The translations under genes and the position numbers were made by a program. From a virus, in IMG/VR virus record IMGVR_UViG_3300032046_000136, positions 1 through 31,526 of that record: a DNA stretch of 31,526 bases; one strand, given 5' to 3'. A model generated the notes under the pieces. The model worked only from the letters and a program-made list of their open reading frames with translations, ran no database searches and was not told where the DNA came from. Within the stretch, counting starts at the first letter, position 1. The number at the start of each line of letters is the position of its first letter. Shown here piece after piece: positions 3,742-30,064 of this stretch.

Positions 3742-3751
3742 AATATTTATA
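3742..3751 (+). promoter_or_regulatory. Candidate late promoter element (AATATTTATA)
   Basis: A perfect copy of the recurring element lies 6 bases before the ATG of the 240-aa gene. The short distance would give a leaderless or nearly leaderless transcript if it acts as a -10-like box. Confidence 0.5.
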
Positions 3752-3757
3752 CTAACA

Positions 3758-4480
3758 ATGTTATTGTCAGAATCATATATCAATAGATTACAAGAACTTG
3801 CTGGCTTAAAATCTAGTAATAAAGCCAATATTCTAAAAGAGGCTGAAGATTTATATTCAAATAGCGGAAAAAGAGTAAAATTCGATACAAATATCATGAA
3901 ACAGGCCATTGAAGGTGGTATGGAAATTGGTATGGTATTTCAAAGTGATAACACAAAATATAAAATGCCAGTTTGGAAAATGAGAATTGTCCAGCCTGTA
4001 GCAATGGGATATGACAAGAAGGGTCAACTTGTAATAAGAGGTATTCATGTTGAGGGCCAATCAGAAAAGAAAGCTATTGAGGCCGCTAGGCTTAATAAAG
4101 GACAAAGAAAAGGTAGTGCTGAAGCAAAAAATGAGTGGAGACTTTTCAAGGCTTCAAACATTAAATCAATGTTTTTTACTGGTAGATTATTTGATACGGT
4201 TGCCCTACCTGGATATAATCCTAATGATTCGGCAATGACAAGTGTTATAGCGAGCTTTAATCCAGATAAGGCTAAAGAGTACCAAAAACAACTTAACGTT
4301 ACTAAGGACAAAGCTATGGCAGAACCTGTAGCTAAAAAACCAACAACTAAGCCAGCAGTTAAGCCAGTAGTTAAACCGACAACTAAACCAGTTGTTCCAA
4401 AAACTCCAGTGAGCACAAAAGGAAAAGAGGATGTTGCAAAATTACAACAAAAGATTGATAAGTTAAATAATCTTTTTTGA
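3758..4480 (+). CDS. Hypothetical protein with Lys/Pro-rich linker, 240 aa
   Basis: This rightward gene stands alone in a leftward block. The N-terminus (LSESYINRLQELAGL) is a short amphipathic helix. Residues ~70-150 form a beta-rich domain (MRIVQPVAMGYDKKGQLVIRG, then WRLFKASNIKSMFFTGRLFD) whose pattern recalls WYL-type domains; this is a weak resemblance. Residues ~190-220 are a repetitive KPTTKP/KPVVKP linker, followed by a C-terminal helix (DVAKLQQKIDKLNNLF). The candidate late element 6 bases upstream suggests expression with virion genes, so a capsid- or packaging-associated protein is possible. Its last 18 bases overlap the 3' end of the leftward AT-hook gene. Stop is TGA, the only non-TAA stop in the window. 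Function unknown. Confidence 0.8.
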   Translation: MLLSESYINRLQELAGLKSSNKANILKEAEDLYSNSGKRVKFDTNIMKQAIEGGMEIGMVFQSDNTKYKMPVWKMRIVQPVAMGYDKKGQLVIRGIHVEGQSEKKAIEAARLNKGQRKGSAEAKNEWRLFKASNIKSMFFTGRLFDTVALPGYNPNDSAMTSVIASFNPDKAKEYQKQLNVTKDKAMAEPVAKKPTTKPAVKPVVKPTTKPVVPKTPVSTKGKEDVAKLQQKIDKLNNLF

Positions 4481-5011
4481 TTTATCTTTTAGTTCTTGAA
4501 TCTTTTTTATAAAATCTTCTGATTTATTTTTTAGCTTATAAAGATTCATGGAACAAGACATATAAGAGGACCTTATTTTTTGCTCTTTAATTATCTCCTT
4601 ATCTTTAATGTATAAATTAAATACAGCTAGGCCTTTTTTAATTTCAAAAACTAACTTATTTTTATAATATCCTTCAAGGGTATCTCCAGCCCCAATTGCT
4701 TTCCACTTTATTTTACTACCAGACTCAAGATATTTTAGGGTGTTTTTTTTGATATCTTCTAATTCTTTTTTCTTTAAGTTTTCTCTTAATTTTCTTTTGA
4801 TTTGTTCTTGGGCTAACTTAACTCTTTCTGCCTCTGCCTTCATTTTTAAATTGAAGCTTTCTATTTCGGCTTCTTCTGCCTCTTTTTTTAGAGTTTCATC
4901 ATCTGTTTTTTGTTCAGTTTGTTTAATTAAGTCCATAGCTGCAGCAGCAACTTCCTTATTTGGTGGTCTGCCTCTTTTCTTTTTATTTTGGTCTGGCGAT
5001 GATAAGTCCAT
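4463..5011 (-). CDS. AT-hook and coiled-coil protein, putative DNA-binding, 182 aa
   Basis: Residues 10-19 (KKKRGRPPNK) contain a canonical AT-hook core (RGRP), a minor-groove DNA-binding motif. Residues ~35-95 are a long Glu/Lys helix that should form a coiled coil. The C-terminal ~85 residues are a small globular domain (KIKWKAIGAGDTLEGYYKNKLVFEI) that I cannot assign. The ATG follows the stop of the 66-aa gene directly (TAA then ATG), indicating translational coupling at the end of the primase/Mre11-Rad50 operon. The 3' end overlaps the converging 240-aa gene by 18 bases. A transcription- or recombination-accessory role is inference from the AT-hook and operon position. Confidence 0.8.
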   Translation of the reverse strand: MDLSSPDQNKKKRGRPPNKEVAAAAMDLIKQTEQKTDDETLKKEAEEAEIESFNLKMKAEAERVKLAQEQIKRKLRENLKKKELEDIKKNTLKYLESGSKIKWKAIGAGDTLEGYYKNKLVFEIKKGLAVFNLYIKDKEIIKEQKIRSSYMSCSMNLYKLKNKSEDFIKKIQELKDKSKKII

Positions 5012-5212
5012 TTAAATAAAGTTTGTTTTTATAAAATCAATTATCCACTGTCTTCTATGTTCGCATAAATAACCGTCATCATGATTACATATCTTTTCAT
5101 AATCCATAATAGAATCAGGATGATAACGTACACTATAACTCCCGCTAGTGTGTAGTTTATTTTCTAATTCAATTAAAAGAGCCTCAGTTGTTTTTTTTTC
5201 TATATTTTCCAT
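5012..5212 (-). CDS. Small hypothetical protein, 66 aa
   Basis: Short ORF in the operon between Mre11-Rad50 (1-base gap) and the AT-hook gene (no gap), so it is real by context. Residues ~41-52 (ICNHDDGYLCEHRR) have a CxH-x5-CxH arrangement that could bind one zinc ion. The N-terminal half is helical (TTEALLIELENKL). No family recognised; possibly a small accessory subunit for its operon partners. Confidence 0.7.
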   Translation of the reverse strand: MENIEKKTTEALLIELENKLHTSGSYSVRYHPDSIMDYEKICNHDDGYLCEHRRQWIIDFIKTNFI

Positions 5213-5213
5213 T

Positions 5214-8200
5214 TTAACGTATATTTAACTTTGTTACTCCAGCCTTAGGATTATTATCTATTACCTCCTGAGTAAGTCCTTGTTGAACTTTCATAACCTC
5301 AATCACATTGTCAGCAAAATCTTTAATCTCATTTCTGTGTGATATCACAATAACATTCTTATGCTTATTTTTTAAATAGTTTAAGATATTAATTATTTCA
5401 AATGTAAGCTCATCATCCAGAGTGCCGAAGCCTTCATCTATAATACAAAGAGATGGTTTTGTAAGGCTGCTAATATAATGTAGAGCATCTTTTATTGCTA
5501 TTGATGATACGAACTTCTGAGCTCCAGAGGCAAATGACAAAGGAAGAGAGTCAGACTTATCATTGTTAAAATAGAAAGTTTCCACAAGGTCACCATTAGC
5601 CAGGATATCAAAATCTATCTTAAAATCAACAGCTTGCTGCAAGATTGTATTTATCCTGTGGTTTATTAGAGGTAGTTTTTTTCTAATAATCAAAGCAGGA
5701 ATTCCATCTCTATGCATGGCCTGAAGATATACAGAATATTTTTTGTATAATTTTTCATACTCTTTGATGTCAATTAATTTTTGGTCTTGAACTTTTATGT
5801 TATTCTCAATAACCTTTAACTCTCCGAATAAAATATTTGTTTGCTTATCTAAATTAAATACAACCAATTTATGCACTTTTGATTCTTCGGTAAATTCATC
5901 AATTTGTACTTTTATTACACCATTGTTTTTTATCTTAGATTCATTATTTTTAATTTTTATAAGGTCTTCGTTTAATTTTACAATCTCGTTTTTCAAAAAA
6001 TCAATTCGCTCTTTGGCTTTTGTTAGGTTTATAGTTTTTGTTTCAACTTGTTGATTGTGGTCTATAATATCTTTTGATTTATTAAATAGCTCTATCTTTG
6101 CTTTAATAGAATCCATTTTCTCTTTTCTATTTAATAGAGTTTGTTTTAAAATATCTTTTTTACTAATTTTATTTTGAAAAGCTGTATTATGATTTTTAAT
6201 ATCATTACTTTCTTTTATCTTATCTTGTTTATGTTTTAATAGTTCTTTCTTTTGCTTTATTTCCTCAATACACTCTTCTTCCTTATGCGGATTTGCTTTT
6301 GCGTGAATGGTTCCACATGTAGGGCATTTTTTGCCTTTAAATGTCAGAAGTTGTCCATCCAATTGTATAATACTTTCTTTTATTTTATCAATATCATCCT
6401 CAAACCCTTCAGTAGAAATCTCTTTTTTAATAGGATTTTCATTAATCCACTTTTCAATAGCAAGATATTCTTCTTTATCTTTTACTAGAGCATCTCTTTC
6501 TTTTTTTAAATTTTCCTCTAATTGTTCTACTGTTGTATTCTCATCAAACGGAAGCTCTTTTTTAAAATTAGTAGAAAGCCAGTCAGATAAGGTTTTAGAT
6601 TCTTTTGTTTTAGTTTCAATATCAGAACTGTGCTGAGTTATTAATCCATTAATTTTAGACTTATCATTAATAGTAACAGGTTCAAGTCTTTCAAGTTTTT
6701 TTGTAAGTTCTAAAATTTCTTTATCCGACTTTTCTCTTTTATCATTAGCTTCATTTTTTTCAAATACAGTATTGTCGTACTCTTGTTTTTTAAGAGTTTT
6801 ATCTAATTCTAATCTTTTTATTTCTTCTTCTATTTTAGGTCTTTCTCCAAGTTCTTTTTGTTTCTTTTTAATATCATTGAAAAAATCTTTTCTAAATTCA
6901 TATCTAAGTTTATATGACTCAAGACCTAGATACTTACTTACCAAGGCGTTTTTTGGCTGTTGGGACATATTTAAATAATCATCCTTTCCCCCTTGTGTTT
7001 GTAGGGATGTTTTTGTAAAATCATCAAAAGTTCCTACAGCATTTTCAACTAATTTACTAACTTCGTTTTTTTCTGCAGTTTTCTCATCTGATTTTTCATT
7101 CTCCCACTTTTCATTATCTAAATTACCTTCTTCGTCATATTCAAACTCTAGAGTTTTATAAAATATAGAATATGAATTTGATGATGTTCCATCTTTTTTT
7201 ACAGTAGTTCTTACAGACCTTTCTATATAATATTTTTTACCGTCAATAGTAATCCATATTTTTACATAACCTTTATTTGAGTCTGTGTAAATATTTGTAA
7301 TGAAACTTGGGTTGCCGCCGCCGAGAATCTCTTTATATAAACCCCATACAAAAGCTTTTATGAAATTAGACTTACCATTATAGTTCTTTCCAAACACTCC
7401 AGTAATACCTTGTAGTTCGTCAAAATTAATTATTGCAGGTTTAACTGGGAATGAAAATATATTGCTTATTTCTACTTTGTTTAATTTCCATTCAGAGCTT
7501 ATTTTTTCTTCTTCTGTAAGTTCTAATTGCTCATTGGTTTCTCTGTGAAGTTTTATTATTTCTGTTACCTCGTCTTTAGAACAATCAAAATTGCCATTGT
7601 TAATAAATTCTTTAAGATATTCTTCACTTTGCTTATAAGTCTCATCAGCTTCGTTTTCATCAATAATGATATCTTTTACTATAGTTTCAAATTGAACCTT
7701 TACTATCTCGCAACCATGCTTGTCTTTTACAAGTTTTATAATTTGATTTTCTCTTTCCTGAGAAAAATTCTCTTCATAATCTTCCCAAATTACATAAACC
7801 TTTGTTTTCTTTTTATTGCTGCTGAATTTAATATGTTCTATTCGGTCTTCAAACTGTTCGCCTTTAGCAATTGTTATTTTTGCAAAACCAAAATCATTTG
7901 GTATATATTTTCTTTCGTGTGTTCTTTTTTCTACATCCCAAAGTAAATAACCCTTATCTATTGCTTCTCCAAAATTTTGCTGAATCAAAGACCCACAATA
8001 AGCCATACTTTCATCCTCACGGAAGGTTTGATATTCGTGTATGTCACCCATCATGACAATATCAAAATTGTCAAATGTGCTTATTTTTATAAGATTATCT
8101 GAATTTAAAGTATGACCATTATCTCCTCTGGCACCAAATACTTGACCATGGAAAAGAGCAACGTAATTTACGCCTGGCTCTTTTTTATCTAAAGATAAAA

Positions 8201-8666
8201 TTTGATTATCTTTCATGGAATACACTCCATAAACCAAATCGTCAGCAAGTTTATAAAATCCACTATCTGGATAATAATAAATGGCATTCTTTTTAAAATT
8301 TATTGAGTCTTTATTTTCGTTTGTTACGATATAGGCTACTTTTTTATTTTCATCTTGGATGAGATTGGCAAGATTTAATATCGGACTGATTGCGTCACCT
8401 TGTTCCATCTGCTGAAGGTTCATATCATGATTACCGAGAATAACGTCCGTAGGTGCTATTCTAGATAAATTAACAAGGAATTCTGAAATTAGGTCAAATG
8501 AACCAGGTGAGATATTTATTTTATGGTGACTAATATCTCCATCAACAACAATTCTGTCTGGCTTAACTTTATTTAAATCGGAATACAATCTTTCAAATAC
8601 AGACCTGTACTCAGCATGTCTCGAACCAAATCTTACCTGTATGTCTGCAATATGTGCTATCTTCAT
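5214..8666 (-). CDS. Single-chain Mre11-Rad50 (SbcD-SbcC, T4 gp47-gp46) fusion, recombination nuclease
   Basis: 1150 aa in one open frame. The N-terminal ~340 residues are an Mre11/SbcD phosphoesterase: Asp8 in ADIQ, GDISHH (43-48), GNHD (78-81), His173 in LFHGQ and GDIH (207-210). The first motif normally reads DxH; here it is Asp8-x-Gln10. A linker (~340-392) leads to a Rad50/SbcC ATPase: Walker A GKNYNGKS (426-433), Q-loop region near TQGG (557-560), two long coiled-coil arms around the zinc hook CPTC (781-784), signature LSFASGAQ (1043-1050), Walker B CIIDEGFGTLD (1074-1084) and H-loop His1110. The family resects DNA ends for recombination. T4 uses two separate proteins of 339 and 560 aa. 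The gene follows the primase by 1 base, so the two are co-transcribed and probably coupled. Confidence 0.95.
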   Translation of the reverse strand: MKIAHIADIQVRFGSRHAEYRSVFERLYSDLNKVKPDRIVVDGDISHHKINISPGSFDLISEFLVNLSRIAPTDVILGNHDMNLQQMEQGDAISPILNLANLIQDENKKVAYIVTNENKDSINFKKNAIYYYPDSGFYKLADDLVYGVYSMKDNQILSLDKKEPGVNYVALFHGQVFGARGDNGHTLNSDNLIKISTFDNFDIVMMGDIHEYQTFREDESMAYCGSLIQQNFGEAIDKGYLLWDVEKRTHERKYIPNDFGFAKITIAKGEQFEDRIEHIKFSSNKKKTKVYVIWEDYEENFSQERENQIIKLVKDKHGCEIVKVQFETIVKDIIIDENEADETYKQSEEYLKEFINNGNFDCSKDEVTEIIKLHRETNEQLELTEEEKISSEWKLNKVEISNIFSFPVKPAIINFDELQGITGVFGKNYNGKSNFIKAFVWGLYKEILGGGNPSFITNIYTDSNKGYVKIWITIDGKKYYIERSVRTTVKKDGTSSNSYSIFYKTLEFEYDEEGNLDNEKWENEKSDEKTAEKNEVSKLVENAVGTFDDFTKTSLQTQGGKDDYLNMSQQPKNALVSKYLGLESYKLRYEFRKDFFNDIKKKQKELGERPKIEEEIKRLELDKTLKKQEYDNTVFEKNEANDKREKSDKEILELTKKLERLEPVTINDKSKINGLITQHSSDIETKTKESKTLSDWLSTNFKKELPFDENTTVEQLEENLKKERDALVKDKEEYLAIEKWINENPIKKEISTEGFEDDIDKIKESIIQLDGQLLTFKGKKCPTCGTIHAKANPHKEEECIEEIKQKKELLKHKQDKIKESNDIKNHNTAFQNKISKKDILKQTLLNRKEKMDSIKAKIELFNKSKDIIDHNQQVETKTINLTKAKERIDFLKNEIVKLNEDLIKIKNNESKIKNNGVIKVQIDEFTEESKVHKLVVFNLDKQTNILFGELKVIENNIKVQDQKLIDIKEYEKLYKKYSVYLQAMHRDGIPALIIRKKLPLINHRINTILQQAVDFKIDFDILANGDLVETFYFNNDKSDSLPLSFASGAQKFVSSIAIKDALHYISSLTKPSLCIIDEGFGTLDDELTFEIINILNYLKNKHKNVIVISHRNEIKDFADNVIEVMKVQQGLTQEVIDNNPKAGVTKLNIR

Positions 8667-8667
8667 A

Positions 8668-9651
8668 TTATTCGTTTAATATTTTATTTATTTCAAATAA
8701 TTCATCAATTTTTTTGGCCGTTTTTAAAAATTTATTTAATTCTTCTTGGCCACCTTCTTCATATATTTTAGAAATATCTCTTCGACCTTTTAAATCTACA
8801 AAAAAAACATTTAAACCTAAAGAAGAAAGTTGTTTATAAATTCCCATACCATCTTTAAAAGCATCTGGGTCAAGACAAATAATTACTGTTGAGTTGTTTT
8901 TTAGTAATTTATTTATCAATAATTCAGATGGGCTTTTTCCAAGCATTGGTATTGAGTTCGGTATTCTGATTGCATCAAAAACCCCTTCAACTAAATATAT
9001 TGGTAAATCCCAATTTATATAATATTCATTGTATATGATATCATTTTTATCTGGAGAATCTGGTTTCATATATGTTCTCTTTGCATCTTTCAAATAAGCC
9101 CTGGCTTCATAATAATTTAACTTACCGTGAGAATTAAGAGAGGGTAAAATAATTCTAAATTTTCTTGTACCACTTTCAGTATAACCAATTTTATATTTAT
9201 CTATTTGGGCTGGAGATATTTTTCTTTGATTAACCGCATAGTCCCAGGCTAAATCATACAGTCTACTTTTTCTCAACTGACTAAGTGGCAAGTAACCATC
9301 TGGTAAGTCACATATAATTAAGTCGTAATCTAATTTAGGCTTCCTAAAAACATTAAAAGTGTTATTATTATATTTTGGTAGTATAAGATTTAAACGCTTT
9401 ATGTCATCTTTAGAACCATATTCTCCAACAAGTTTATGAACATATCCACTATATTTACATTTCCAGCACTTAAAAACTTTATCATTTGATTTGTAGGCTA
9501 AGTTAAATTTACCACTATCATGACGACAAGTTGGAGATGGACAATTAAATTCCCATTGAATCCTGGTGTCTGAATCTTTGCTGAATCTTGGGTCGCCCAA
9601 AAACCCTTCAATTATATTAACAATTATGTAATCGTCCTGACTATTTAACAT
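8668..9651 (-). CDS. DnaG-type DNA primase (T4 gp61-like)
   Basis: 327 aa, close to T4 gp61 (342 aa). An N-terminal zinc-binding domain has C37 and C42 (CPSPTC) and C62 and C65 (CWKC). The TOPRIM catalytic domain has the acidic residue Glu222 in YLVEGVFDAI and the DxD pair Asp261/Asp263 in ICLDPDA, with a further conserved-looking segment GRRDIS (289-294). It should make RNA primers for lagging-strand synthesis with a replicative helicase not seen in this window. First gene of the operon leading into Mre11-Rad50, with a 1-base gap. The start context has no Shine-Dalgarno. Confidence 0.9.
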   Translation of the reverse strand: MLNSQDDYIIVNIIEGFLGDPRFSKDSDTRIQWEFNCPSPTCRHDSGKFNLAYKSNDKVFKCWKCKYSGYVHKLVGEYGSKDDIKRLNLILPKYNNNTFNVFRKPKLDYDLIICDLPDGYLPLSQLRKSRLYDLAWDYAVNQRKISPAQIDKYKIGYTESGTRKFRIILPSLNSHGKLNYYEARAYLKDAKRTYMKPDSPDKNDIIYNEYYINWDLPIYLVEGVFDAIRIPNSIPMLGKSPSELLINKLLKNNSTVIICLDPDAFKDGMGIYKQLSSLGLNVFFVDLKGRRDISKIYEEGGQEELNKFLKTAKKIDELFEINKILNE

Positions 9652-9772
9652 AGTTGCAAATATAACTAAAAAAAGCGAAAATTACAATAAAAATATAATA
9701 TTATAAACCTACTACATAACAATCAGACAGAAAAAGAAAATTTTGACATATTTATAACAAAATTAATATCTT
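9652..9772. other. Divergent intergenic region between primase and GIY-YIG gene
   Basis: About 120 very A/T-rich bases that must hold the promoter of the leftward primase operon and that of the rightward endonuclease. The only element I can name is the candidate late box at 9748-9756 facing the endonuclease. I see no hairpin, tRNA or ORF here. Confidence 0.5.
9748..9756 (+). promoter_or_regulatory. Candidate late promoter element (ATATTTATA)
   Basis: A match to the recurring element in the correct orientation, 16 bases before the ATG of the GIY-YIG endonuclease gene. It suggests this gene is expressed with the late class, unlike the leftward replication genes on either side. Confidence 0.45.
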
Positions 9773-10441
9773 ATGAATGTAAAAATTTACGGTTTAATAG
9801 AGCCGATTACTGGTCAAATAAAATATATTGGAAAAACAAAACAGCTGTTACAAAAGCGCCTAAGTGCGCATATTTCAGAATGTAATAAATCTAATACAAA
9901 AAAAAATACATGGCTAAAAAGTCTTAAGAAAAATGGTTTAAAGCCAAAAATAGAGGAATTAGATTTAGTATTAGAATCAGAATGGGAATTTTGGGAGCAA
10001 TATTGGATATCACAATTTAAAACATGGGGATTTGAGCTAAAAAATACAGATGAGGGCGGAAAAGGGCAATCTTCTGAATTTATGAAAAAAAATAACCCTA
10101 TGTTTAAAAAGAAAAACAGAAAAAAGGTATCACAATCTCTAAAAGGAAATCAATTTGCAAAAGGGTTTAAACATTCCGAAGAAACAAGAAAAAAAGTTAG
10201 TGATAATAGTTCTAAATTTTGGTTAGGAAAAAATAGAGACCAAAAAACAAAAAATAAAATTAGTAAAACAAAATCAAAACCAGTATATCAATTTAGTTTA
10301 GATAATATTTTTATAAAAAAATTTGCTTCTGTTGCAGAGGCTATAGAAAAAACAAATTCAGATAGAACTACTTTATATAAATGTTTAACTAATAAAGTAG
10401 AAAAATGTAACGGATTTATTTGGAAGAAGAATCTTGATTAA
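9773..10441 (+). CDS. GIY-YIG homing endonuclease with NUMOD domains
   Basis: 222 aa. The N-terminal GIY-YIG nuclease domain has Ile5-Tyr6-Gly7 and Tyr18-Ile19-Gly20 in the two signature strands, the catalytic-type Arg29 (QKRLSAH) and Glu75 (EFWEQYWI). The middle (~105-165) carries Lys-rich NUMOD3-like DNA-binding repeats (NPMFKK..., GNQFAKGFKHSEETRKK). The C-terminal ~50 residues form a NUMOD1-like helix-turn-helix (VYQFSLDNIFIKKFASVAEA to NGFIWKK). This is a classic phage homing endonuclease that cuts homologous alleles and spreads with flanking DNA. It runs opposite to both neighbours, and its last 26 bases overlap the 3' end of the RuvC-like gene, consistent with insertion of a selfish gene between primase and resolvase. 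Confidence 0.93.
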   Translation: MNVKIYGLIEPITGQIKYIGKTKQLLQKRLSAHISECNKSNTKKNTWLKSLKKNGLKPKIEELDLVLESEWEFWEQYWISQFKTWGFELKNTDEGGKGQSSEFMKKNNPMFKKKNRKKVSQSLKGNQFAKGFKHSEETRKKVSDNSSKFWLGKNRDQKTKNKISKTKSKPVYQFSLDNIFIKKFASVAEAIEKTNSDRTTLYKCLTNKVEKCNGFIWKKNLD

Positions 10442-11009
10442 GAGCTCCTTTTTGTCTTTCAATTGTAATTAACATTGCAATTCCAATGGTGTACGCATCA
10501 GCCATGTCATAGTTCTCATCCAGCAATTTCATTGACCTTGGGCCGTATTTCCAGTTAATTAGAGGCTCCAATTCCATTACTTTTTTCCAGATATCATGTT
10601 TGATGGAATTACCGCCCTTTTCTGGCTTATCTTCACTTTCGCCAGAAGTGCCTCCTTTTGTTCTCTTTCCAAAAGCAAGACTTCTTGCGTTATTAACATT
10701 AAAATAAATCGGTTCCATACCAAATTCTAAATATAGATAAGAGCTAATCATTCCATTAAAAAAGTTTAATAAAGCTATGGTTGTTGCTGAGGAGAATTTG
10801 CCCATAAATTTCTTAAGAGGCTCTTCAATAGCGATAAATGTTATTGGGAATTTTTTTAAATATTCAGTAACTCTTTTGAATTCTTCTAATTTTTCAAAAA
10901 TAGTTATTTTATCTGCAAATTTAACACAGTTAAGTTCTATTAATTTTCCGTCTTCATTAAATATGGCATATCCGATACATGAAGTAGAAATGTCTAATGC
11001 TAAAATCAT
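10416..11009 (-). CDS. RuvC-like Holliday-junction resolvase (RNase H fold)
   Basis: 197 aa. The N-terminus MILALDISTSCIGYA carries the first catalytic Asp (Asp6). IAIEEP supplies the second acid (Glu62/63) and YDMADAYTIG the C-terminal acids (Asp168/Asp171), the layout of RuvC-type resolvases. It would resolve branched recombination intermediates before packaging, the job done in T4 by the unrelated endonuclease VII (gp49). Residues ~115-135 are a flexible Gly/Lys/Glu loop. The last eight or so residues are encoded opposite the end of the GIY-YIG gene and look non-conserved (QDSSSK). It lies immediately downstream of a terminator, so it needs its own promoter (see 11010-11031). Confidence 0.88.
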   Translation of the reverse strand: MILALDISTSCIGYAIFNEDGKLIELNCVKFADKITIFEKLEEFKRVTEYLKKFPITFIAIEEPLKKFMGKFSSATTIALLNFFNGMISSYLYLEFGMEPIYFNVNNARSLAFGKRTKGGTSGESEDKPEKGGNSIKHDIWKKVMELEPLINWKYGPRSMKLLDENYDMADAYTIGIAMLITIERQKGALNQDSSSK

Positions 11010-11031
11010 AATTTTCTCTTTTTATAATAAT
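11010..11031 (-). promoter_or_regulatory. Candidate early/middle promoter-leader before the RuvC-like gene
   Basis: On the minus strand TATTATAAAAAGAGAAAATT runs straight into the ATG and follows a terminator, mirroring the leader of the 136-aa gene at 2699-2720. The two differ mainly by one extra AG. It could be a promoter -10 region, an A-rich translation enhancer, or both. Confidence 0.35.
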
Positions 11032-11061
11032 AAAAAAAACCTTGACAAATATCAAGGTTTT
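11032..11061 (-). terminator. Factor-independent terminator after the 375-aa virion gene
   Basis: A 10-bp inverted repeat (AAAACCTTGA at 11036-11045, TCAAGGTTTT at 11052-11061) with a 6-base loop, followed on the minus strand by eight T. It terminates leftward transcription of the structural block before the RuvC-like gene. Confidence 0.82.
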
Positions 11062-11093
11062 CAATAAAAATAATTATTTAATAATCAACTCTA

Positions 11094-13004: not shown

Positions 13005-13024
13005 GTTAATTTTTTTTAGTTGTT

Positions 13025-13034
13025 TATAAATATT
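13025..13034 (-). promoter_or_regulatory. Candidate late promoter element (AATATTTATA)
   Basis: A perfect match on the minus strand, 20 bases before the ATG of the 243-aa gene and downstream of the stop of the preceding 133-aa gene. Each gene of this cluster except the last has its own copy. Confidence 0.5.
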
Positions 13035-13453: not shown

Positions 13454-13463
13454 TATAAATATT
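13454..13463 (-). promoter_or_regulatory. Candidate late promoter element (AATATTTATA)
   Basis: A perfect match on the minus strand, 13 bases before the ATG of the 133-aa gene, in the short gap after the 687-aa gene. Confidence 0.5.
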
Positions 13464-15554: not shown

Positions 15555-15563
15555 TATAAATAT
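15555..15563 (-). promoter_or_regulatory. Candidate late promoter element (ATATTTATA)
   Basis: A match on the minus strand 13 bases before the ATG of the 687-aa gene; same spacing as for the 133-aa gene. Confidence 0.5.
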
Positions 15564-15654: not shown

Positions 15655-15664
15655 AATATTTATG
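15655..15664 (+). promoter_or_regulatory. Candidate late promoter element (AATATTTATG)
   Basis: A 9-of-10 match to the recurring element, 15 bases before the GTG start of the 813-aa gene. It supports that unusual start because the spacing equals that before the fibre gene at 19942. Confidence 0.45.
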
Positions 15665-19916: not shown

Positions 19917-19926
19917 AATATTTATA
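19917..19926 (+). promoter_or_regulatory. Candidate late promoter element (AATATTTATA)
   Basis: A perfect match 15 bases before the ATG of the fibre gene, in the 34-base gap after the 593-aa gene. Confidence 0.5.
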
Positions 19927-19941: not shown

Positions 19942-21420
19942 ATGATTGGAGAATTAATACCAACAGCATATACCTACGACCAAGGTAGAGTCGCATTAAA
20001 TGATTCATTTAGCGCTACAGCCTATTTTGTTAATACAGAAGCTAGTGGAAATGTAACTGGAGGAACTTATTATTCTGGTGCCACTCCTCTTTCTCTTATA
20101 ATTCAAAATCTTGCTGTTGCTGGTTCTGTAACAACAGTTCAACCAGGAACAAACATATTAACTGGTGGCTCTGCAACATCTCCAATCGTAAGCACTGTTG
20201 CTTCTCCTAGTTTTAATTCAATCACAGCATCGGGTTCAAGTATATTTAATGGTGGTTTATCTGCAAGTACATTAAGTGGTGGAACAATATTAAGTGGCTC
20301 AACAAACTTATATGCAATATTTGCAACTGCCGCTGGTTCTGTAACAACAGTTCAGCCAGGAACAAACATATTAACTGGCGGTTCTGCAACAAGTCCAATT
20401 ATAAATGTTGTTCCATCTCCTTCGTTTAATAATGTGACGTTTTCAGGAACAGCAATTGGTGGAACTGTACAAGCAGGCGCTGGTACATTCACATCTTTAA
20501 GCGCAACAACTTTATCGGGTGGAACAATCTTATCAGGTTCAACAAATTTATATGCAATATTTGCCCCAATTGGAGGAAGTGGTGAAGCAAATACAGCTTC
20601 AAATGTTGGTTCTGGTTTTGGATTGTTTAAACAAAAAACTTTAGTTGACTTAGAATTTAGGAGTTTATCAGCAGGTAGTAATGTAACATTTATAACTGGA
20701 GATACTCTTACAATAAACGCTAATGCTTCTGGTGGTACAGGATTTAGTGGATGGACAAGTTCAACAGGAATAGATTCAATTATTGCAAATAATGGAACTG
20801 GAAATGTTGCATCAGGAAATTATGCTCTTGCTAGCGGAACTGGAAATACGGCATCTGGAATTTATTCTTCTATTGTTGGAGGGCATGATAATTTAGCTGA
20901 TGGAATTTCATCTTTTGTATCTGGAAACGGTAACATTGCTAATGGAATTGGTTCAGTTGCATTTGGTATAAATACAGTTGCATCTGGAGATTCATCTTTT
21001 TCAAGCGGATTTGGTTTAGTAGCGTTTACTGCAGTTAAAGCAAATGGGCTTTGTTCATTTAATCACTGTTATGCTGTTGGTGCTCCATCTATTGCTGGTG
21101 CGGATTATTCTGCAATCTTAGGAGGTATAAATAATTCTATTTTTGGAGCCGCATCAAACTCTGCAATATTAGGAGGTGGAAATAACACTATTGATGACTC
21201 TGCTACATATTCAGTAATTCTTGGAATGAATGGATTTACAGCAACGGCTGCAAGTACAGTACATATGTCAAAGGCATATATTGATGAATATATTGATTTA
21301 AAACCTCAAACATCAGCTCCATCTCCAGTACCTGGAAGAATGTTTTTTAGTGGTTCTCCGTTATATAGAATGATTTTATTTACTGGAACTAATTCATACG
21401 ACTGGATGATATTATCTTAA
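19942..21420 (+). CDS. Repeat-rich trimeric tail fibre with YadA-head-like beta roll, 492 aa
   Basis: The N-terminal half has two tandem copies of a ~70-residue unit (each [20 protein letters not shown] ... [18 protein letters not shown]). From ~290 to 440 there are short 14-16-residue repeats of the type [46 protein letters not shown]. These resemble Hep_Hag/YadA-head repeats of trimeric adhesins, left-handed parallel beta rolls. The C-terminus ([25 protein letters not shown]) is short; there is no intramolecular chaperone or peptidase domain. It is likely a receptor-binding or connector fibre. Last gene before a bidirectional terminator. Confidence 0.85.
20119..20392 (+). repeat. Direct repeat inside the fibre gene
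   Basis: A 61-base segment at 20119-20179 recurs at 20332-20392 with only a few mismatches, mostly synonymous. A second pair at about 20271-20327 and 20511-20566 ([18 protein letters not shown]) is more diverged. Together they form two copies of one module, evidently by recent tandem duplication. Confidence 0.85.
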
Positions 21421-21422
21421 TT

Positions 21423-21453
21423 AAAAAGACCTCAATTGAGGTCTTTATTTTTT
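21423..21453. terminator. Bidirectional factor-independent terminator
   Basis: A 22-base perfect palindrome (arms AAAGACCTCAA and TTGAGGTCTTT at 21425-21446), flanked by A on the left and ATTTTTTT on the right, lies between two converging genes. The right-hand T run serves the fibre gene; the left-hand A run serves the leftward baseplate operon, whose last stop codon overlaps its edge. Confidence 0.85.
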
Positions 21454-22327: not shown

Positions 22328-22376
22328 AATTAAAGTGTTTTAAATAAATAATTAAAAATAATATTTCCATTCCATA

Positions 22377-23174: not shown

Positions 23175-23175
23175 G

Positions 23176-23733
23176 TTATTTATTTATATCTATATTATAA
23201 CGCTTAGCTTTTGAAATTATATTTTCATTTATAAAACTTGTTGTATCTGATGAGAATCCAATAAGAGTTAATGAGTCTATTGTTGTTTCTCCACTTCCGC
23301 CTTTATTCCAAGCAAAATCAAATTTACCTTGATTATCGAACCAATTTTTAAGTGTAGAATCCGATGGAAATAAAACTGAAACTTCTGGTCTTACAGACCT
23401 TATATAAGTTATCATTGTAGTTGTCAGTTCAGATGCATTATTAATTTTATTTCTTTTAATAGTATCAAAAAATTTAAACTCTATAAAATATGGATTTATT
23501 TCTTGTCTTTCCATTGTAAATATAGTATCATCACTATCTACATTTACATATTCCATTAAATTTCCAGTTTTTGTAATAAAGACTGGAAGATAAAAGTCAA
23601 ACTGAGGAAAAACACCCAATGTTCTAGTGTTTCCATTTTGATGTACAAAACCATATCCATTTGTCATGTTTGGAGTTGGAGATGTTACAACTGGAATCTG
23701 AAATTTATGTATATTATCTGAGTAATTTTCCAT
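23176..23733 (-). CDS. Putative tail/baseplate structural protein, 185 aa
   Basis: Unrecognised; aromatic-rich with central beta strands (FDFYLPVFITKTG) and a helical segment (ASELTTTMITYIRSV). An ATATTTATT variant of the late element lies 3 bases upstream of the ATG, so a new transcript may start here, 19 bases after the stop of the 336-aa gene. Coupled to the 265-aa gene downstream. A role in the baseplate or fibre network is inferred from neighbours only. Confidence 0.68.
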   Translation of the reverse strand: MENYSDNIHKFQIPVVTSPTPNMTNGYGFVHQNGNTRTLGVFPQFDFYLPVFITKTGNLMEYVNVDSDDTIFTMERQEINPYFIEFKFFDTIKRNKINNASELTTTMITYIRSVRPEVSVLFPSDSTLKNWFDNQGKFDFAWNKGGSGETTIDSLTLIGFSSDTTSFINENIISKAKRYNIDINK

Positions 23734-23736
23734 TTA

Positions 23737-23745
23737 AATAAATAT
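23737..23745 (-). promoter_or_regulatory. Possible late promoter element (ATATTTATT)
   Basis: An 8-of-9 match on the minus strand only 3 bases before the ATG of the 185-aa gene. The spacing is shorter than in any other case, so support is weaker. Confidence 0.3.
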
Positions 23746-23752
23746 GTTTATT

Positions 23753-24763
23753 TTAACTAGCAACTAATATATCCATATCTAAAATAGCTCCTGGGTTAAC
23801 ATTTACTAAATTAGAAATTTGTAATTCTAAAACTTTTGATTGTCCGAAAACGATTATGTCATCAAATGTTATAAATTTATCTTTATCTCCAATTGCCCAA
23901 TTTATTGTATAAGGAATAACATTTGATTCTACGTAGTGTACTCCCAAAATTGCAGTAGATGTAGGTTTTTTTATTATAGTTACAGATTCATTTCCAAGAG
24001 TACTATTTACATCTAATGATATTTTTACAGTTAATGTAACAGGTTTTTTGACTAAATCAGAAGATTTTTCAAAACTAACCTTATGAATAACTGGCGTAGG
24101 TGGCGTAGGTGGCGTAGGTGGCGTAGGTGGCGTAGGTGGCGTAGGTGGCGTAGGTGGCGGCGTAATTGTTTGTCCAGATTTTACAATTAACAAATCTTTC
24201 TTCACCCAATGTTTATTATAAAGAAAATAAAAATCATTATCAATTATAATTGAATTTCCTTCTTCGTCAATATCTTCTGTCTGAGTTCCATAATCTACAA
24301 AATTACCTTCACCGTCTTTAAATACAAGTTGTTGTACAAATAATTGGTCATCATATGTTAAATTATCAGTTGGTATAAATATATAAGCCATATCAGATGG
24401 ATAATTATTTAGTTCAAACAAATACTTTCCTCTTTTTTTTCCAAAAGCATTTACTTCACTATAAACTAAAGAGGAAGTTTTTGACGCTTGGAATAAATCA
24501 ACAAAATCTGTAAAAGCAGAAAATAAATATATATCAAGAGCATCAGAATTAGAAGTGATAGAATCAACAGTTCCATAAATTCTAAAATCTCTGGATGCGT
24601 TTCTTTCTCTATCAAATTGTTTAGATACATCAAAAACATTATCAAATCTATCTTTTCTAATTTCAGAAAAAGTTGTATTTAGATTTAGGTTAATAAAAAT
24701 ATCTTCATTGTTTTTAGCAATAATATCTTTTTCACCTAATAATATTTTTTTCTTTTCATCCAT
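23753..24763 (-). CDS. Putative baseplate/tail protein with (TPP)n linker and Calx-beta-like domain, 336 aa
   Basis: Residues 1-200 form an unassigned domain (FDVSKQFDRERNASRDFRIYGTV is a notable segment). Residues 201-224 are a pure Thr/Pro linker built from a 9-bp DNA repeat. Residues ~229-336 look like a Calx-beta or Ig-like sandwich (TAILGVHYV, then NWAIGDKDKFITF, as in the GTAxxGxDYxx...GDxxKxIxI pattern). Follows the 974-aa gene by 5 bases. By operon position and size it could be the counterpart of T4 gp8 (334 aa), but I see no sequence similarity, and the extra surface-type domain argues for caution. Confidence 0.75.
   Translation of the reverse strand: MDEKKKILLGEKDIIAKNNEDIFINLNLNTTFSEIRKDRFDNVFDVSKQFDRERNASRDFRIYGTVDSITSNSDALDIYLFSAFTDFVDLFQASKTSSLVYSEVNAFGKKRGKYLFELNNYPSDMAYIFIPTDNLTYDDQLFVQQLVFKDGEGNFVDYGTQTEDIDEEGNSIIIDNDFYFLYNKHWVKKDLLIVKSGQTITPPPTPPTPPTPPTPPTPPTPPTPVIHKVSFEKSSDLVKKPVTLTVKISLDVNSTLGNESVTIIKKPTSTAILGVHYVESNVIPYTINWAIGDKDKFITFDDIIVFGQSKVLELQISNLVNVNPGAILDMDILVAS
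24092..24154 (-). repeat. Seven perfect tandem copies of a 9-bp unit
   Basis: TGGCGTAGG on the plus strand is repeated seven times without mismatch, encoding Pro-Thr-Pro triplets in the linker of the 336-aa protein. It is much more G+C-rich than the surrounding DNA. Identical copies suggest recent slippage expansion and likely length variation. Confidence 0.95.
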
Positions 24764-24768
24764 TTAAA

Positions 24769-27693
24769 TTAGTTATTAGCAATATATACATGGAAAATTC
24801 TATCATCTTTCTTTTTGTCTGAACATCCATCATCAGTAATACCATTCACAGTATTTCCAACGTAAGGCTGTGACACTATTTTCCACTTACTATTATCAGC
24901 ATTGGCAGTTGCTGCTGTATTCCAAACAAGAGGGCTAATTCCACCAGAAGCTGCATCATTTCCACTCCAATATCCATATTGACCAGGAGAATCAAGATTT
25001 CCATCAACTACTATTCTTAAGCTATATTTTACATTTTCATATTTATTTGTATTGATATTATAGCTTGAATTTCCTGGAAATGTAAGTTCAGTATGTTCTA
25101 CGGCTGTTTTTGGATTTGTTACTGTAGGTTTTTGTATGACGAAATAAGCGCCTGGTTCTAATTTAAATTTATATCCTTCATTTCCAACTGGTCCATTATA
25201 ATTTATGCTATTACCTCCAACCATAATTGCATCATTAAATTGTTGAGATATTTCTACGGTAATATCTCCAGAATTCCATACTTGTAATGCAAATAACCTA
25301 TTAGCGCTTGGTCCGAATTTTAATTTAGCAAAAGTAGGTATTCTAAAGTTTTCTGGAGTTCCAATGTTGTCATATCCTGAATTAACTATTCTATAAATAT
25401 CTATTCCGTCTAAACGTGCCTTGTTATCTTCTGGATTATTAAGCGCAAGAGCAAAATTTTGGTCGTCTAAATTATATACATTAGCATAACGTTCTATTAT
25501 ATTAAACCCAAATCCGTTTGAGCCTCCTGCATAATTTGGTTGTGGATTTGGAGGTGTAGTGAAATAAGTATCCCATACCCATGGCCATGTATATATAAGA
25601 GGCCAATCAGAATATTTCATAAAATATCCATAACCACATTCTACTCTTTGATATTTTTCTCCATTCAAAACAGATGACATTCCTGCTAATAGAGGATGTG
25701 TTCCATTTACATTTGTTGCCCATGGTCCAAGTCCAGTTCCACCAGGCCCAGTTCCTGTCCAATATGGTTCATATCCATTTGCGTATTTTTCTTTCCAAGA
25801 AACATTTCTTTCATATTTATACATATATGTTTTTGATGCCACGAAAGCAATTCTATTTTGAAATCTAGTGCCATTAAATTCTTGTAAACCAAATCCACCA
25901 ACAGGAGTGTCTCCAATAATAGCAGAAGCATCAGTTGGAGAACCAACTAAGTCTCCATCTGAATATCTAGGCTCCTCTATTGGATATGGAGTGCTATTAT
26001 ATGTTCTATCGGTTTGATATCCATATCTTTGTTTGACTGGCATTGCAGGTATATTATATGGTTCTGGATATGAAATAGACCATGGCTTTTCATATGGGAA
26101 TTGACCAATAGCTGAATTATCATTGTTAATTCCAAAATTTGTATTCGTATTAGAATAACTCAATCCATAATGACTTTGAAGTTGCGCTGTTCCTTTTTTA
26201 AATGCTCCAGTATCTCTATATCCTATTGTTTTATTTACGAAAACTCTAAATTGATATGCTGATAACCAAACTCCTTTTTGTGCTGTAGGAACACCATAAA
26301 CATTGGTTTTAAAGCCATTTGGGTCATACATATTTGCTGGCAACTTAAGAACATGACATCCAAATTTTGAATATTGTAATTGAGTTTTCTTTAATCCAAA
26401 TTCATTATACCACGAATATTGAGATTCGTTATCTCTATCAAGGTCATCTGATATTTGAACAACTTCTAAATCTTTTATACCAAATCCCGCATTTGTCATA
26501 TCTCTAATTTGTATCTTAAGAGTATTTGCTGCGTTTTTAGCGGTTGTTGATTCTAATTTTTCTTTACCATATGCAGCTGGAGCAAACATATATGTAGTCC
26601 ATTTTCTTAAATCTAAATTAACAGTAATATCCAATTCAGTATATCCAGTCTGCACTGTCCCCCATGCTGGAACAATATCTACTGGAACTTGATTGTAATA
26701 ATAACAAGGAAACTCTCCAATGTTTGCATTATCACTAGGCGGGAATGGAAAATTATTTAGTATTATTTCATCTTTAGAAAGACCTTGTTTAAATAAATCC
26801 ACTTCAAATACAACTGTTTGATTTCCTACTGGAGCATTATAAATAACAAACTCTCCATTTTCATTTGTTATTGTTACAAACTTAAATTTATCTGGAAGAG
26901 ACAATAAATCTGAATTAGACCTCAAAAATTTTTGGTCTTCAGAGTATGCAATAGGAACTGTTGATGATGGTCCTGTTGATGGGCTGAAGTAAATATTTGA
27001 ACTAGATACTCCACTTAAATTCATATAAAACCTATCCCCATTTTCATCTAATGAGCTTGGGGTAGGAAATTCTTCGCTTGGATTAAAAATTCCTATTGGA
27101 ACATTAGCTAATGGTATTCTAATAGAATTTCCTTCGTCATCTTTTAGTAATTGTATAGCTTCTAATTTTCCAAATAAAATTCCAGTTTTAGCTTCTTGTT
27201 GCGGTATGCTATTTATGGGTGTATTATAAATTTTTAATGTATCTAGCGTTTCATATGTTCTGCTTAATTTAATATTTGCAAACATATCATCTATTTCTTT
27301 TTGCTCAAAGAAAACATAAGTTTGATAACTTAGTGGTATTTGAGTTTGTGCAGTAATAGTAGATGTTACACTATTATTAAATCTTTGTTTAATAGTTTCT
27401 TTTTCGCTATCTGATAATGTTTTATTAATCGTCTGAGTAACGCTATATCCAGTTACAAAGTTATTTGTAGAAGACTCAAGAAGCGTATTTAATTGATAGT
27501 TATATACGCTATTTAATTTCCATATTTCTTTTCCATTATATGTAGAAAAGTATATTGGCTGATTATAATTATTAAATACCAAATACGCAAGTTCTTGCAG
27601 TTGCGGAACTGTTTCTGGCGTTTGATTTGGCGCAAAAGAAAATATAGTTGTGCCAGTTCTTGATTTTTTATATAATATTTCTTCTCTAAGCAT
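24769..27693 (-). CDS. Large baseplate wedge-type protein, 974 aa (possible gp7 counterpart)
   Basis: Third gene of the gp25-gp6 operon, 8 bases after gp6. Residues ~165-310 contain a carboxypeptidase-regulatory-like sandwich (GILFGKLEAIQLL ... IRIPLANVPIGIF ... NENGEFVIYNAPVGNQTVVFEVD). The middle and C-terminal parts are rich in Tyr, Trp, Pro and Gly (SWKEKYANGYEPYW, WPLIYTWPWVW), as expected for a rigid structural protein. No catalytic motif or membrane segment. T4 has gp6 (660 aa), gp7 (1032 aa) and gp8 (334 aa) in a row; here 619, 974 and 336 aa follow one another. The gp7 equivalence is inference from order and length only. Confidence 0.72.
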   Translation of the reverse strand: MLREEILYKKSRTGTTIFSFAPNQTPETVPQLQELAYLVFNNYNQPIYFSTYNGKEIWKLNSVYNYQLNTLLESSTNNFVTGYSVTQTINKTLSDSEKETIKQRFNNSVTSTITAQTQIPLSYQTYVFFEQKEIDDMFANIKLSRTYETLDTLKIYNTPINSIPQQEAKTGILFGKLEAIQLLKDDEGNSIRIPLANVPIGIFNPSEEFPTPSSLDENGDRFYMNLSGVSSSNIYFSPSTGPSSTVPIAYSEDQKFLRSNSDLLSLPDKFKFVTITNENGEFVIYNAPVGNQTVVFEVDLFKQGLSKDEIILNNFPFPPSDNANIGEFPCYYYNQVPVDIVPAWGTVQTGYTELDITVNLDLRKWTTYMFAPAAYGKEKLESTTAKNAANTLKIQIRDMTNAGFGIKDLEVVQISDDLDRDNESQYSWYNEFGLKKTQLQYSKFGCHVLKLPANMYDPNGFKTNVYGVPTAQKGVWLSAYQFRVFVNKTIGYRDTGAFKKGTAQLQSHYGLSYSNTNTNFGINNDNSAIGQFPYEKPWSISYPEPYNIPAMPVKQRYGYQTDRTYNSTPYPIEEPRYSDGDLVGSPTDASAIIGDTPVGGFGLQEFNGTRFQNRIAFVASKTYMYKYERNVSWKEKYANGYEPYWTGTGPGGTGLGPWATNVNGTHPLLAGMSSVLNGEKYQRVECGYGYFMKYSDWPLIYTWPWVWDTYFTTPPNPQPNYAGGSNGFGFNIIERYANVYNLDDQNFALALNNPEDNKARLDGIDIYRIVNSGYDNIGTPENFRIPTFAKLKFGPSANRLFALQVWNSGDITVEISQQFNDAIMVGGNSINYNGPVGNEGYKFKLEPGAYFVIQKPTVTNPKTAVEHTELTFPGNSSYNINTNKYENVKYSLRIVVDGNLDSPGQYGYWSGNDAASGGISPLVWNTAATANADNSKWKIVSQPYVGNTVNGITDDGCSDKKKDDRIFHVYIANN

Positions 27694-27701
27694 AATTTAA
27701 A

Positions 27702-29561
27702 TTAAGCAACTCTTATCAATATATCTTTGCTTGGAAATTTCACTTCAAAAAGAGATAGTGGTGTTCCAAAAATTGTATTATCAATAAAGTCAATTTGAGT
27801 TCTAAATCCACCAGTTTCTACTATAATATTTTTATTCCCAACTGCCTGAGAAATTAAAGTGCTAGAATATCCTCCAGCTTCCATATTATAAAACCTAATA
27901 TCAACAACGTTTATTACACCTGGAACTTCTCTTAAAATATCCGTAAGTTGTGATACATAAATATTTTGATTCATTTCCCATTTCTCTATATCAAGAAAAC
28001 TCTGTATAGCAGATATTGCATTTGATTTTATTTCATTTAGATTAAAATCTTTATTTACAAACAAATCAGCTTCAACTTGAAGATTTACAACCTTTCCATC
28101 ATTTATTTCAATATAATCATTAATCATTCTAAATGGAACTAAAAAGGTAGCTAAGTTATTTTTTATATCACTTGTAGAATTTGAAATAAGAGTTCCATCT
28201 GCAGCTCTTGATAAAATGTATAATTTAACTTTATTGTCTTGTACCTCTCCATGAACTTTAAAAGGCGCTCCAAACTTTCCTGGCATTTGATATGCTCTTG
28301 AAATATAATCTCCAAGAGTTACGGCACGCATTTGACTTGCGAAGTTTGCTGCAATGTTATTTCTAATTTCATCAATAGTTGGAAGTCCAACTCCTCCAAT
28401 AGCTGGAACTGGATTGTTCGCTCGTGCTGAAGCTAAAACTCTTTGGTTCTGTGCTGCATTTGGGCCATTTATAGAAGCATCAATACTAGAAACATCATTC
28501 AATGTATTTGCTCCAACATTACTTAATGTTCCTCCTCCAACTCTATATTTTACGAATATTGTAGAATTTGGTGGAACCATAACACCAAGAGCAGTGTTGT
28601 TTAATATTTTATTAATAGTAATATCGTTAGATGGGCAATCTTCACCTGATAATTGGTCAAAGAAATCAGAATAAGCATCATAATCTCCAGTTCCTCCTCC
28701 GAATGTAATTTTACAAGAACCATCTGTTAAAAATTCTTTTATAAATCTTTTTTCAACTTCTACATATTCCCCTATTCTATAAGAAGAATCTACTGGAGAT
28801 ATACCAGTATCCATAAATATCTTATCAGTGGGAAGAAAATCTACTTCCCAGAATTTGATATTGAAATCATTAAATTCTTGATATGTTGGATTTCTATTCA
28901 TCCCTAAAGATTGAAATATTATAACACTTACTATTTCTAATACATTATTTTCTGGAAGAGTCAATTGATAAAACGGTCCAGATTCTTCTGCTGTAACTTC
29001 TCTTTTAAATATTTTTGTTGCTCCAGCTTTTATTTTTTCACGTTTAATAATACGATATCTAATCAAATCTTGATTTCCATTTAAAATGGGCTGTATTATT
29101 CTATTTGCAATACCAGACTCACTAAAGTCTCTAGAAAAATCTATTTCAGATATTGTTTCAAATACTTGGCCTGCACCTTTAATTTGAACGCCTGGTCTAA
29201 AAATTGGAAGATAATCTGGGTCTGGTCCATTTGCAGTAACAGGAACTTCAATTGTGACATCAGCTAATGTAATGGCTGGCCTAACACCAGGAACTTGATA
29301 GCCTAATGTTTTTGCTAATCTATAAGCCGATTTTCTTTCTGAAATACCGTCAAGAAATAATTCGTTGAATTTTTTATCAGCCACATATGATAATAAATCT
29401 CCAACATAGGCATTAAGCTCTAATAAGGCCATACCAGGAGATGACACATTAAAATCTTGCCATTGTTCTGGAAAAAAGGCTTTTAAGTAGTTAATCAAAT
29501 CTTGTCTGATTGTAGCATAATCTCTACTTAAATAATTTACTTGTACATTTTGAGTTGCCAT
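27702..29561 (-). CDS. gp6: Baseplate wedge protein, T4 gp6 / baseplate J-like, 619 aa
   Basis: The N-terminal segment VNYLSRDYATIRQDLINYLK followed by DFNVSSPGMALLELNAYVGD, then LSYVADKKFNELFLDGISER and the SAYRLAKTLGY helix, is the signature of gp6/J-family baseplate wedges. Length is close to T4 gp6 (660 aa). Gp6 dimers form the inner iris ring around the hub and connect wedges during tail contraction. The C-terminal ~120 residues include a typical J-like end (SFLDIEKWEMNQNIYVSQLT, LREVPGVINVVDI). Eleven bases downstream of the gp25-like gene. Family call is firm. Confidence 0.94.
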   Translation of the reverse strand: MATQNVQVNYLSRDYATIRQDLINYLKAFFPEQWQDFNVSSPGMALLELNAYVGDLLSYVADKKFNELFLDGISERKSAYRLAKTLGYQVPGVRPAITLADVTIEVPVTANGPDPDYLPIFRPGVQIKGAGQVFETISEIDFSRDFSESGIANRIIQPILNGNQDLIRYRIIKREKIKAGATKIFKREVTAEESGPFYQLTLPENNVLEIVSVIIFQSLGMNRNPTYQEFNDFNIKFWEVDFLPTDKIFMDTGISPVDSSYRIGEYVEVEKRFIKEFLTDGSCKITFGGGTGDYDAYSDFFDQLSGEDCPSNDITINKILNNTALGVMVPPNSTIFVKYRVGGGTLSNVGANTLNDVSSIDASINGPNAAQNQRVLASARANNPVPAIGGVGLPTIDEIRNNIAANFASQMRAVTLGDYISRAYQMPGKFGAPFKVHGEVQDNKVKLYILSRAADGTLISNSTSDIKNNLATFLVPFRMINDYIEINDGKVVNLQVEADLFVNKDFNLNEIKSNAISAIQSFLDIEKWEMNQNIYVSQLTDILREVPGVINVVDIRFYNMEAGGYSSTLISQAVGNKNIIVETGGFRTQIDFIDNTIFGTPLSLFEVKFPSKDILIRVA

Positions 29562-29572
29562 TTTTTATATTT

Positions 29573-29959
29573 TTAAAGTGGTGGTAAAATTTGAACGTCT
29601 ATTTCTACAAAATCTGTTAGTCCTGCCATTTCTATTATTGAGTACACTATTTTTGTAGTTAATACATTTGTAGATTCATCAAAGCTAAATATCACATCTT
29701 GAGTTGTAATTTCTGGTATAAAAGTTATTATTTTATCTAGCAAATCAGATTTTAATTTATCTGCAGATATTTCATCCCATGGCTCGAAAATATAGTCATA
29801 TAGGGGTGAATATAGACTGTTATGCATAGGCCTTTGTCTCCTTTTTAGCGTAAGAAGTGCAATAAGGTTAGTTCTAACCTTTTCTGGAGTCGTTTTTGTA
29901 TATCTGTAAATTCCACCCTCAAAAGACTCTGAAAACGGAAATTTTATGCCTATAGCCAT
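29573..29959 (-). CDS. gp25: Baseplate wedge protein, T4 gp25-like (GPW_gp25 family), 128 aa
   Basis: 128 aa against 132 in T4 gp25. It shows the family's SF-x-G start, the TTPEKVRTNLIALLTLKRRQRP segment containing the RRxRP signature, the YIFEP motif and a beta-rich C-terminal half (EIDVQILPPL). Gp25 joins the wedge core with gp6 and helps trigger sheath assembly. First gene of the leftward baseplate operon; a CTATTTATA copy of the late element lies 19 bases upstream. This gene and the gp6-like gene are the strongest evidence for a contractile tail. Confidence 0.93.
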   Translation of the reverse strand: MAIGIKFPFSESFEGGIYRYTKTTPEKVRTNLIALLTLKRRQRPMHNSLYSPLYDYIFEPWDEISADKLKSDLLDKIITFIPEITTQDVIFSFDESTNVLTTKIVYSIIEMAGLTDFVEIDVQILPPL

Positions 29960-29978
29960 ACTTAATTGTTAATTTAAA

Positions 29979-29987
29979 TATAAATAG
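29979..29987 (-). promoter_or_regulatory. Candidate late promoter element (CTATTTATA)
   Basis: An 8-of-9 match on the minus strand, 19 bases before the ATG of the gp25-like gene; it would drive the gp25-gp6-974-aa-336-aa operon. Confidence 0.42.
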
Positions 29988-30054
29988 ATGGCCAAAAAAA
30001 ATAAAGACCTAGAAGACTATTTATCTATATAAAAACAAAAAAGGTTTTTTGCTG

Positions 30055-30064
30055 AATATTTATA
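30055..30064 (+). promoter_or_regulatory. Candidate late promoter element (AATATTTATA)
   Basis: A perfect match only 4 bases before the ATG of the zinc-repeat endonuclease gene. No copy precedes the structural gene that starts inside the endonuclease gene's 3' end, so both may depend on this element. Confidence 0.48.

Follow-up and report, generated by a model that had tools for sequence, protein, structure and literature searches.

An AT-rich box upstream of late-type genes as a probable one-box late promoter of T4-like phages

The octamer TATTTATA recurs shortly upstream of start codons of late-type genes in a T4-like phage and in a wide group of its relatives, and its best reading, as judged from sequence, is that of a late promoter. 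The phage is represented by a 31.5-kb IMG/VR virus fragment with a GC-content of 30% (the window, by which we mean the whole stretch of DNA analysed). Its genes are those of a T4-like myovirus: a UvsW/SNF2-like helicase, a RecB-like exonuclease, an SbcD-SbcC fusion, a primase, a RuvC-like resolvase, and gp25 and gp6 baseplate proteins. The late-promoter reading, proposed in a preliminary description of the window, draws support from the class of gene served, from orientation, spacing and conservation among orthologues, from the operons that lack the box, and from a candidate sigma factor. We consider it likely that the box is the late promoter used by a wide range of T4-like myoviruses, probably infecting Bacteroidota (the host phylum that we infer), and that a gp55-like sigma factor is its reader.

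Distribution of the box in the window and its relatives

The element had been described as a 10-mer, AATATTTATA; the conserved core unit is instead A or C followed by TATTTATA. With up to one mismatch the 10-mer occurs 37 times in the window, against an expectation of 25.5 +/- 5.6, and 4 of 100 shuffles reached a count as high. The raw count is therefore only mildly above chance; the part that chance does not provide is the position and strand of the cores. An exact core lies on the coding strand no more than 45 nt 5' of the start at 8 of 26 starts, compared with one in antisense, whereas 1000 dinucleotide shuffles of the window's upstream DNA gave a mean of 0.61 cores and a maximum of 4. Both an orientation bias relative to the gene and an enrichment over shuffled DNA are thus borne out. 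The accompanying statement that few copies fall inside genes holds in a relative sense, about 14 of the 22 cores in the window being intragenic.

Exact copies of the 10-mer precede the starts at 3758, 13004(-), 13440(-), 19942 and 30069, and copies with one mismatch those at 9773, 15541(-) and 15680, as listed previously; the site at 29959(-), also on that list, departs from the 10-mer at two positions while keeping the 8-base core exact. The distances, put at 4-20 bases, measure 3-20 nt, a close match. On the plus strand, exact cores lie at 3744-3751, 6 nt 5' of ATG 3758 (at most one mismatch in 4 of 8 orthologues); at 9749-9756, 16 nt 5' of ATG 9773 of a homing endonuclease-like gene (exact in all three homologues); at 19919-19926, 15 nt 5' of ATG 19942 (exact in 14 of 16 orthologues); and at 30057-30064, 4 nt 5' of ATG 30069 of an HNH endonuclease gene, for which a leaderless transcript is predicted (three of five homologues have an exact box, each at 4 nt). 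A variant, TATTTATG, occupies 15657-15664, 15 nt 5' of GTG 15680; among 17 orthologues 4 are exact and 14 have at most one mismatch.

On the minus strand, exact cores lie at 13454-13461 and 15555-15562, each 13 nt 5' of its ATG (13440 and 15541) and each exact in 13 of 15 orthologues, and at 29979-29986, 19 nt 5' of ATG 29959 of the gp25-like baseplate gene, where 16 of 17 orthologues carry an exact box 13-19 nt from the start. The core at 13025-13032, 20 nt 5' of ATG 13004, is weakly conserved, with no exact copy among its homologues and 4 of 12 within one mismatch. The weaker copy reported before 23733(-) was found as the variant TATTTATT at 23737-23744, 3 nt from the ATG; its transcript is predicted to be leaderless, and among 16 orthologues an exact box was found in 10, in each case at a distance of 2-4 nt. 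The same variant at 22343-22350, 15 nt 5' of ATG 22327 (10-mer ATTATTTATT), had escaped the earlier list, and here all 17 orthologues carry an exact box at 10-18 nt. The sites with an exact box in 13 to 17 orthologues belong to structural genes, those with the coordinates 29573 (gp25), 21452, 19942, 13478 and 13039; the site conserved at 2-4 nt belongs to the gene at 23176. Orthologues of genes internal to operons, and of replication genes, have almost no exact boxes.

Several genes of the window deserve mention in their own right. The homing-type endonuclease genes at 9773-10441 (+) and 30069-30998 (+) are free-standing, adjoin divergent genes and have a late box each; the second is predicted to be leaderless, as are those of its homologues that have the box. 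A tail-type protein encoded at 19942-21420 (+) contains internal repeats (a 20-residue unit, twice), and the product of 23753-24763 (-) has a PPTPPTPPT repeat linker. SbcD and SbcC, the equivalents of T4 gp47 and gp46, are apparently fused in one 1150-aa protein (5214-8666, minus strand).

A search with gp6 returned 17 relatives at 56-92% identity, the DNA of which was analysed whole (including G010, 187 kb), and many more at 30-43%. A second clade comprises five genomes (G018, G020, G021, G022 and G024) with a gp6 about 39-40% identical. A simple ORF caller gave 1133 starts; in the 60 nt 5' of these, no 8-mer has a stronger strand bias than TATTTATA, which counts 200 sense and 42 antisense copies against 12.6 expected. 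Pooling 16 non-identical genomes, window included, places the box at 179 of 1053 starts, and 31 times in antisense. Among 8-mers made of A and T only, it has the highest share of copies at starts (172 of 378 in the relatives, 23 of 75 in G010 and 119 of 452 in the second clade, which carries the box as AGTATTTATA). Where the gap upstream of a gene is at least 25 nt, 179 of 599 genes have the box; where it is under 10 nt, 9 of 387 do. In the cultured Flavobacterium phage immuto the box stands at the genes for tail sheath, tail tube, portal and terminase and at other structural genes; the immuto gene at 142474 is an example with the box 2-4 nt from the start codon.

The same procedure applied to 50 kb of the T4 late region ranked TATAAATA first, with copies 14-28 nt from starts and none nearer, and applied to Tenacibaculum phage PTm1 it gave the host-type word TATATTTG. 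Enrichment of TATTTATA was not found in the stretches of PTm1, crAss001, Mel-JY01 and LR756508 that were run through it, and the T4 word shows no sense enrichment in the genomes studied here, where the box is TATTTATA, with two central changes.

Anatomy of the box and comparison with known promoters

Aligned sites share a T-rich patch 8-10 nt upstream, a base that is A or C but G in the second clade, TATTTATA, two free positions, and AAA(A), which occupies offsets 10-13 counted from the first base of the box; this A-run follows 3-5 nt after the box. At leadered sites AA occupies offsets 11-12 in 113 of 133. Beyond the weak T-rich patch, no element at -35/-33 was apparent among the aligned sites. 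Once similar upstream sequences are removed, the distance from box to start codon is bimodal: 17 sites at 2-4 nt, 5 at 5-9 nt and 122 at 10-24 nt. Where the distance is 2-4 nt, the A of the ATG stands in for the A-run, as expected if transcription starts on that A and the mRNA is leaderless. Judged from this short class and from the A-run, transcription would begin 4-5 nt after the box, rather than the 5-8 proposed beforehand; if so, late mRNAs of this class would lack a leader, and the box would cover positions from about -12 to -5. The -7 element of Bacteroidota has this register (PMC6847099), and that of the T4 box, which runs from -13 onwards, is close to it (PMC2988020).

T4 late promoters consist of the box TATAAATA, recognised with the gp55 sigma, the gp33 co-activator and the gp45 clamp (PMC2988020). 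In both systems a single 8-bp AT box stands 5' of late genes on either strand, followed by an AT-rich segment and with no -35 element, and in both the specificity factor is of the sigma region 2 type (here a candidate). The box had been taken for the reverse complement of TATAAATA. So it is, but when read in sense it differs from the T4 box at no more than the two central positions, with TT in place of AA, which makes an inverted promoter needless; were it a T4 box pointing the other way, tandem genes would be read in antisense. Lineage-specific variants of the one box occur elsewhere, as NATAAATA in S-PM2 (PMC2984593) and with a/gC at -13/-12 in Aeh1 (PMC2988020); these keep the central AAA as described, whereas the present phages have T at positions 4 and 5. 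They differ from T4 also in the start deduced 4-5 nt after the box, in the predicted leaderless class (there is none in the T4 stretch examined, with its 14-28 nt), and in a sigma candidate that is very divergent and has a C-terminal domain. Neither of the sliding-clamp profiles phrog_223 and PF02767 had a match in immuto or in any of six large relatives (phrog_223 did score in T4), although a very divergent clamp could escape such a search. Activation of the T4 kind is thus unsupported, no clamp of the gp45 or beta type having been detected. Since the box differs and neither clamp was found, this is not a plain T4-type member; the system operates in the manner of T4 late promoters, and the term variant describes it best. 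Motifs of multisubunit polymerases (DFDGD, DFDID) were absent from the large genomes.

The replication operon lacks the box, as had been reported. At its head, a sigma-A-type promoter, TTG-N20-TATATTTG, occupies 9657-9687 on the minus strand, 5 nt 5' of the primase ATG at 9651, and the primase gene is the only one in the window to have it; of 10 relatives, 9 have the -7 box TAnnTTTG and 6 the complete promoter. In immuto a block of small early-type genes carries TTG-N-TATATTTAG. The sigma-A promoter of Bacteroidota is TTTG-N-TAnnTTTG (PMC6847099, PMC9723704). It resembles the late box in probable register (-12 to -5) and in the TA at the upstream end, and differs in its -33 element and TTTG: the combination of a -7 TAnnTTTG with a -33 TTG or TTTG was not found at the late boxes of the window. 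The same phages use it for another gene set, the replication operon and small early genes, so that replication genes can be told from late genes by their promoters.

Other signals were noted in passing. Terminator-like hairpins lie in the window at 21421-21451 (AAAGACCTCAATTGAGGTCTTT, between convergent genes) and at 11010-11093 (AAACCTTGACAAATATCAAGGTTT, upstream of 11009). G010 has a block of small single genes (L094-L095; 140-172 kb of the record), many with a terminator-like GGGG..CCCCCTTTT followed about 12 nt on by TTTCTTTATATGTTTATAACC, a second promoter-like element that resembles neither the late box nor host promoters. We considered CCCCCTTTT as a -35 element and rejected it; it often comes after a GGGG arm, and such copies resemble a terminator for the gene before.

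A candidate sigma factor and alternative explanations

The preliminary description had suggested looking for a late sigma like T4 gp55. Direct searches with the T4 gp55 families phrog_234 and phrog_12791 found no match in the near relatives; a pattern search for region-2-like sequence did yield a conserved, unannotated protein containing FNPxQNTKSFSYxGTIAKHYL, a divergent candidate family with matches to region 2. One orthologue each is present in 14 near relatives, five second-clade genomes and immuto, where it is YP_010114565.1 (KNV73_gp118), labelled 'hypothetical'; nearly all relatives whose sequence spans the region encode it, and a scan with the candidate extended the family to more than 300 relatives. 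In G010 some 5 kb separate the gene from gp25, so its counterpart in the window phage should lie roughly 5 kb past the right end of the window.

The closest orthologues (G010, G008 and G011) have no significant family match of their own. Among ten family members scanned, two exceed the curated cut-off for Sigma70_r2 (PF04542; 25.0 and 25.2 against 24 bits) and one matches phrog_234, the late sigma family of T4 gp55 (E 8.8e-7). Aligned by hhalign, the family matches bona fide sigmas (93%, E 4e-7) and gp55 (P 3e-4 over 111 columns); the two members above the cut-off and the hhalign result together place sigma-70 region 2 in the family. For an AlphaFold model (pLDDT 73) compared by Foldseek with the PDB and a viral library, sigma factors were the commonest matches, each of them weak and none with E <0.05; a second, poorer model had no useful match. 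Loci fetched by the candidate alone carry the box in the sense direction, with sense to antisense counts of 63/4, 11/2, 5/0 and 6/1 in four subgroups (the loci being partly redundant), and 0/0 in one marine subgroup; a relative of the candidate is also encoded by Mel-JY01 and LR756508, in which the stretch examined has no box. The box is probably read by this divergent phage sigma, encoded just outside the window.

Weak phrog_234 matches in G018 and G019 were also considered as the late sigma and set aside, as they represent a short separate protein. These proteins of about 105-115 aa (L149, G019 23421-23531; L150, G018 149312-149647) have a gp55-like region 2 segment, FNSNKTNNAYAYVVTIIR, and are distinct from both the conserved candidate and the ECF sigma of the same genomes.

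That ECF-type sigma, with regions 2 and 4, provides the strongest of the alternatives, in which the box is still a late promoter but is not read by the gp55-like protein. Each of G010, G018, G020-G022 and G024 encodes one, above the PF04542 cut-off and matching phrog_1740, and the G010 gene (165382-166002) sits within the block of small early-type genes, where a gene that controls later ones would be expected. An ECF sigma that has region 4 normally requires a -35 element, however, and the box sites have none; no ORF of immuto matches the ECF profile, yet immuto has the box; and the loci picked by the gp55-like protein alone carry it. We therefore think an ECF reader improbable, though it deserves some weight.

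Less probable again is that the box is a variant -7 element for unmodified host sigma-A, perhaps aided by a phage activator, with no phage sigma involved. A register shared with TAnnTTTG (PMC6847099) and the TA at the start of the box would suit such a role. Against it, the box has no T-7, G-5 or -33 element; true TAnnTTTG promoters with TTG occur alongside it, at the replication operon of these genomes and in similar form at the small genes of immuto, and are distinct from it; and PTm1 and crAss001, likewise phages of Bacteroidota, lack the box.

The strong coding-strand bias near start codons might also reflect a signal acting in the mRNA, in translation initiation or processing, the more so as Bacteroidota lack Shine-Dalgarno sequences (PMC6847099). 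Yet genes in tight operons also need translation, and they rarely have the box while genes with room upstream often do; early genes lack it; and a spread of 10-24 nt with a separate mode at 2-4 nt is unlike a ribosome-binding signal. We hold this very unlikely. Chance occurrence in AT-rich DNA, which the mildly raised 10-mer count might suggest, is refuted at the level of enrichment by strand bias, position, orthologue conservation and rank among A/T-only 8-mers, and hardly merits consideration.

A model of late transcription and its implications

With the late-promoter reading preferred, a simple scheme can be proposed. Host RNA polymerase core, joined by the phage gp55-like sigma (a divergent protein of the sigma-70 region 2 type that has a C-terminal domain of its own), would melt the AT-rich box, and RNA would begin on an A some 4-5 nt after it. 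Early and replication genes would use host sigma-A promoters (TTG-N-TAnnTTTG), so that making the gp55-like sigma would switch transcription to the structural genes. At a minority of genes the start site would coincide with the AUG, giving leaderless mRNAs, which would suit hosts whose ribosomes need no Shine-Dalgarno sequences. The fuller picture, in which a widespread, unannotated gp55-like sigma family serves a clamp-free one-box late promoter and part of the late mRNAs are leaderless with the AUG as start, we put forward tentatively, as a possibility that is less likely than not.

Among open-licence papers we found no description of this box or of a late sigma of Bacteroidota phages. For a large phage group whose gene control is undescribed in the literature searched, the present analysis supplies a late promoter together with a probable late sigma, and it makes late genes in metagenomic fragments recognisable from sequence alone. 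On this evidence, too, the central bases of the T4 one-box late promoter may be open to change together with a diverged sigma. The cultured Flavobacterium phage immuto makes two matters testable: the need for clamp coupling, and leaderless late mRNAs without Shine-Dalgarno initiation.
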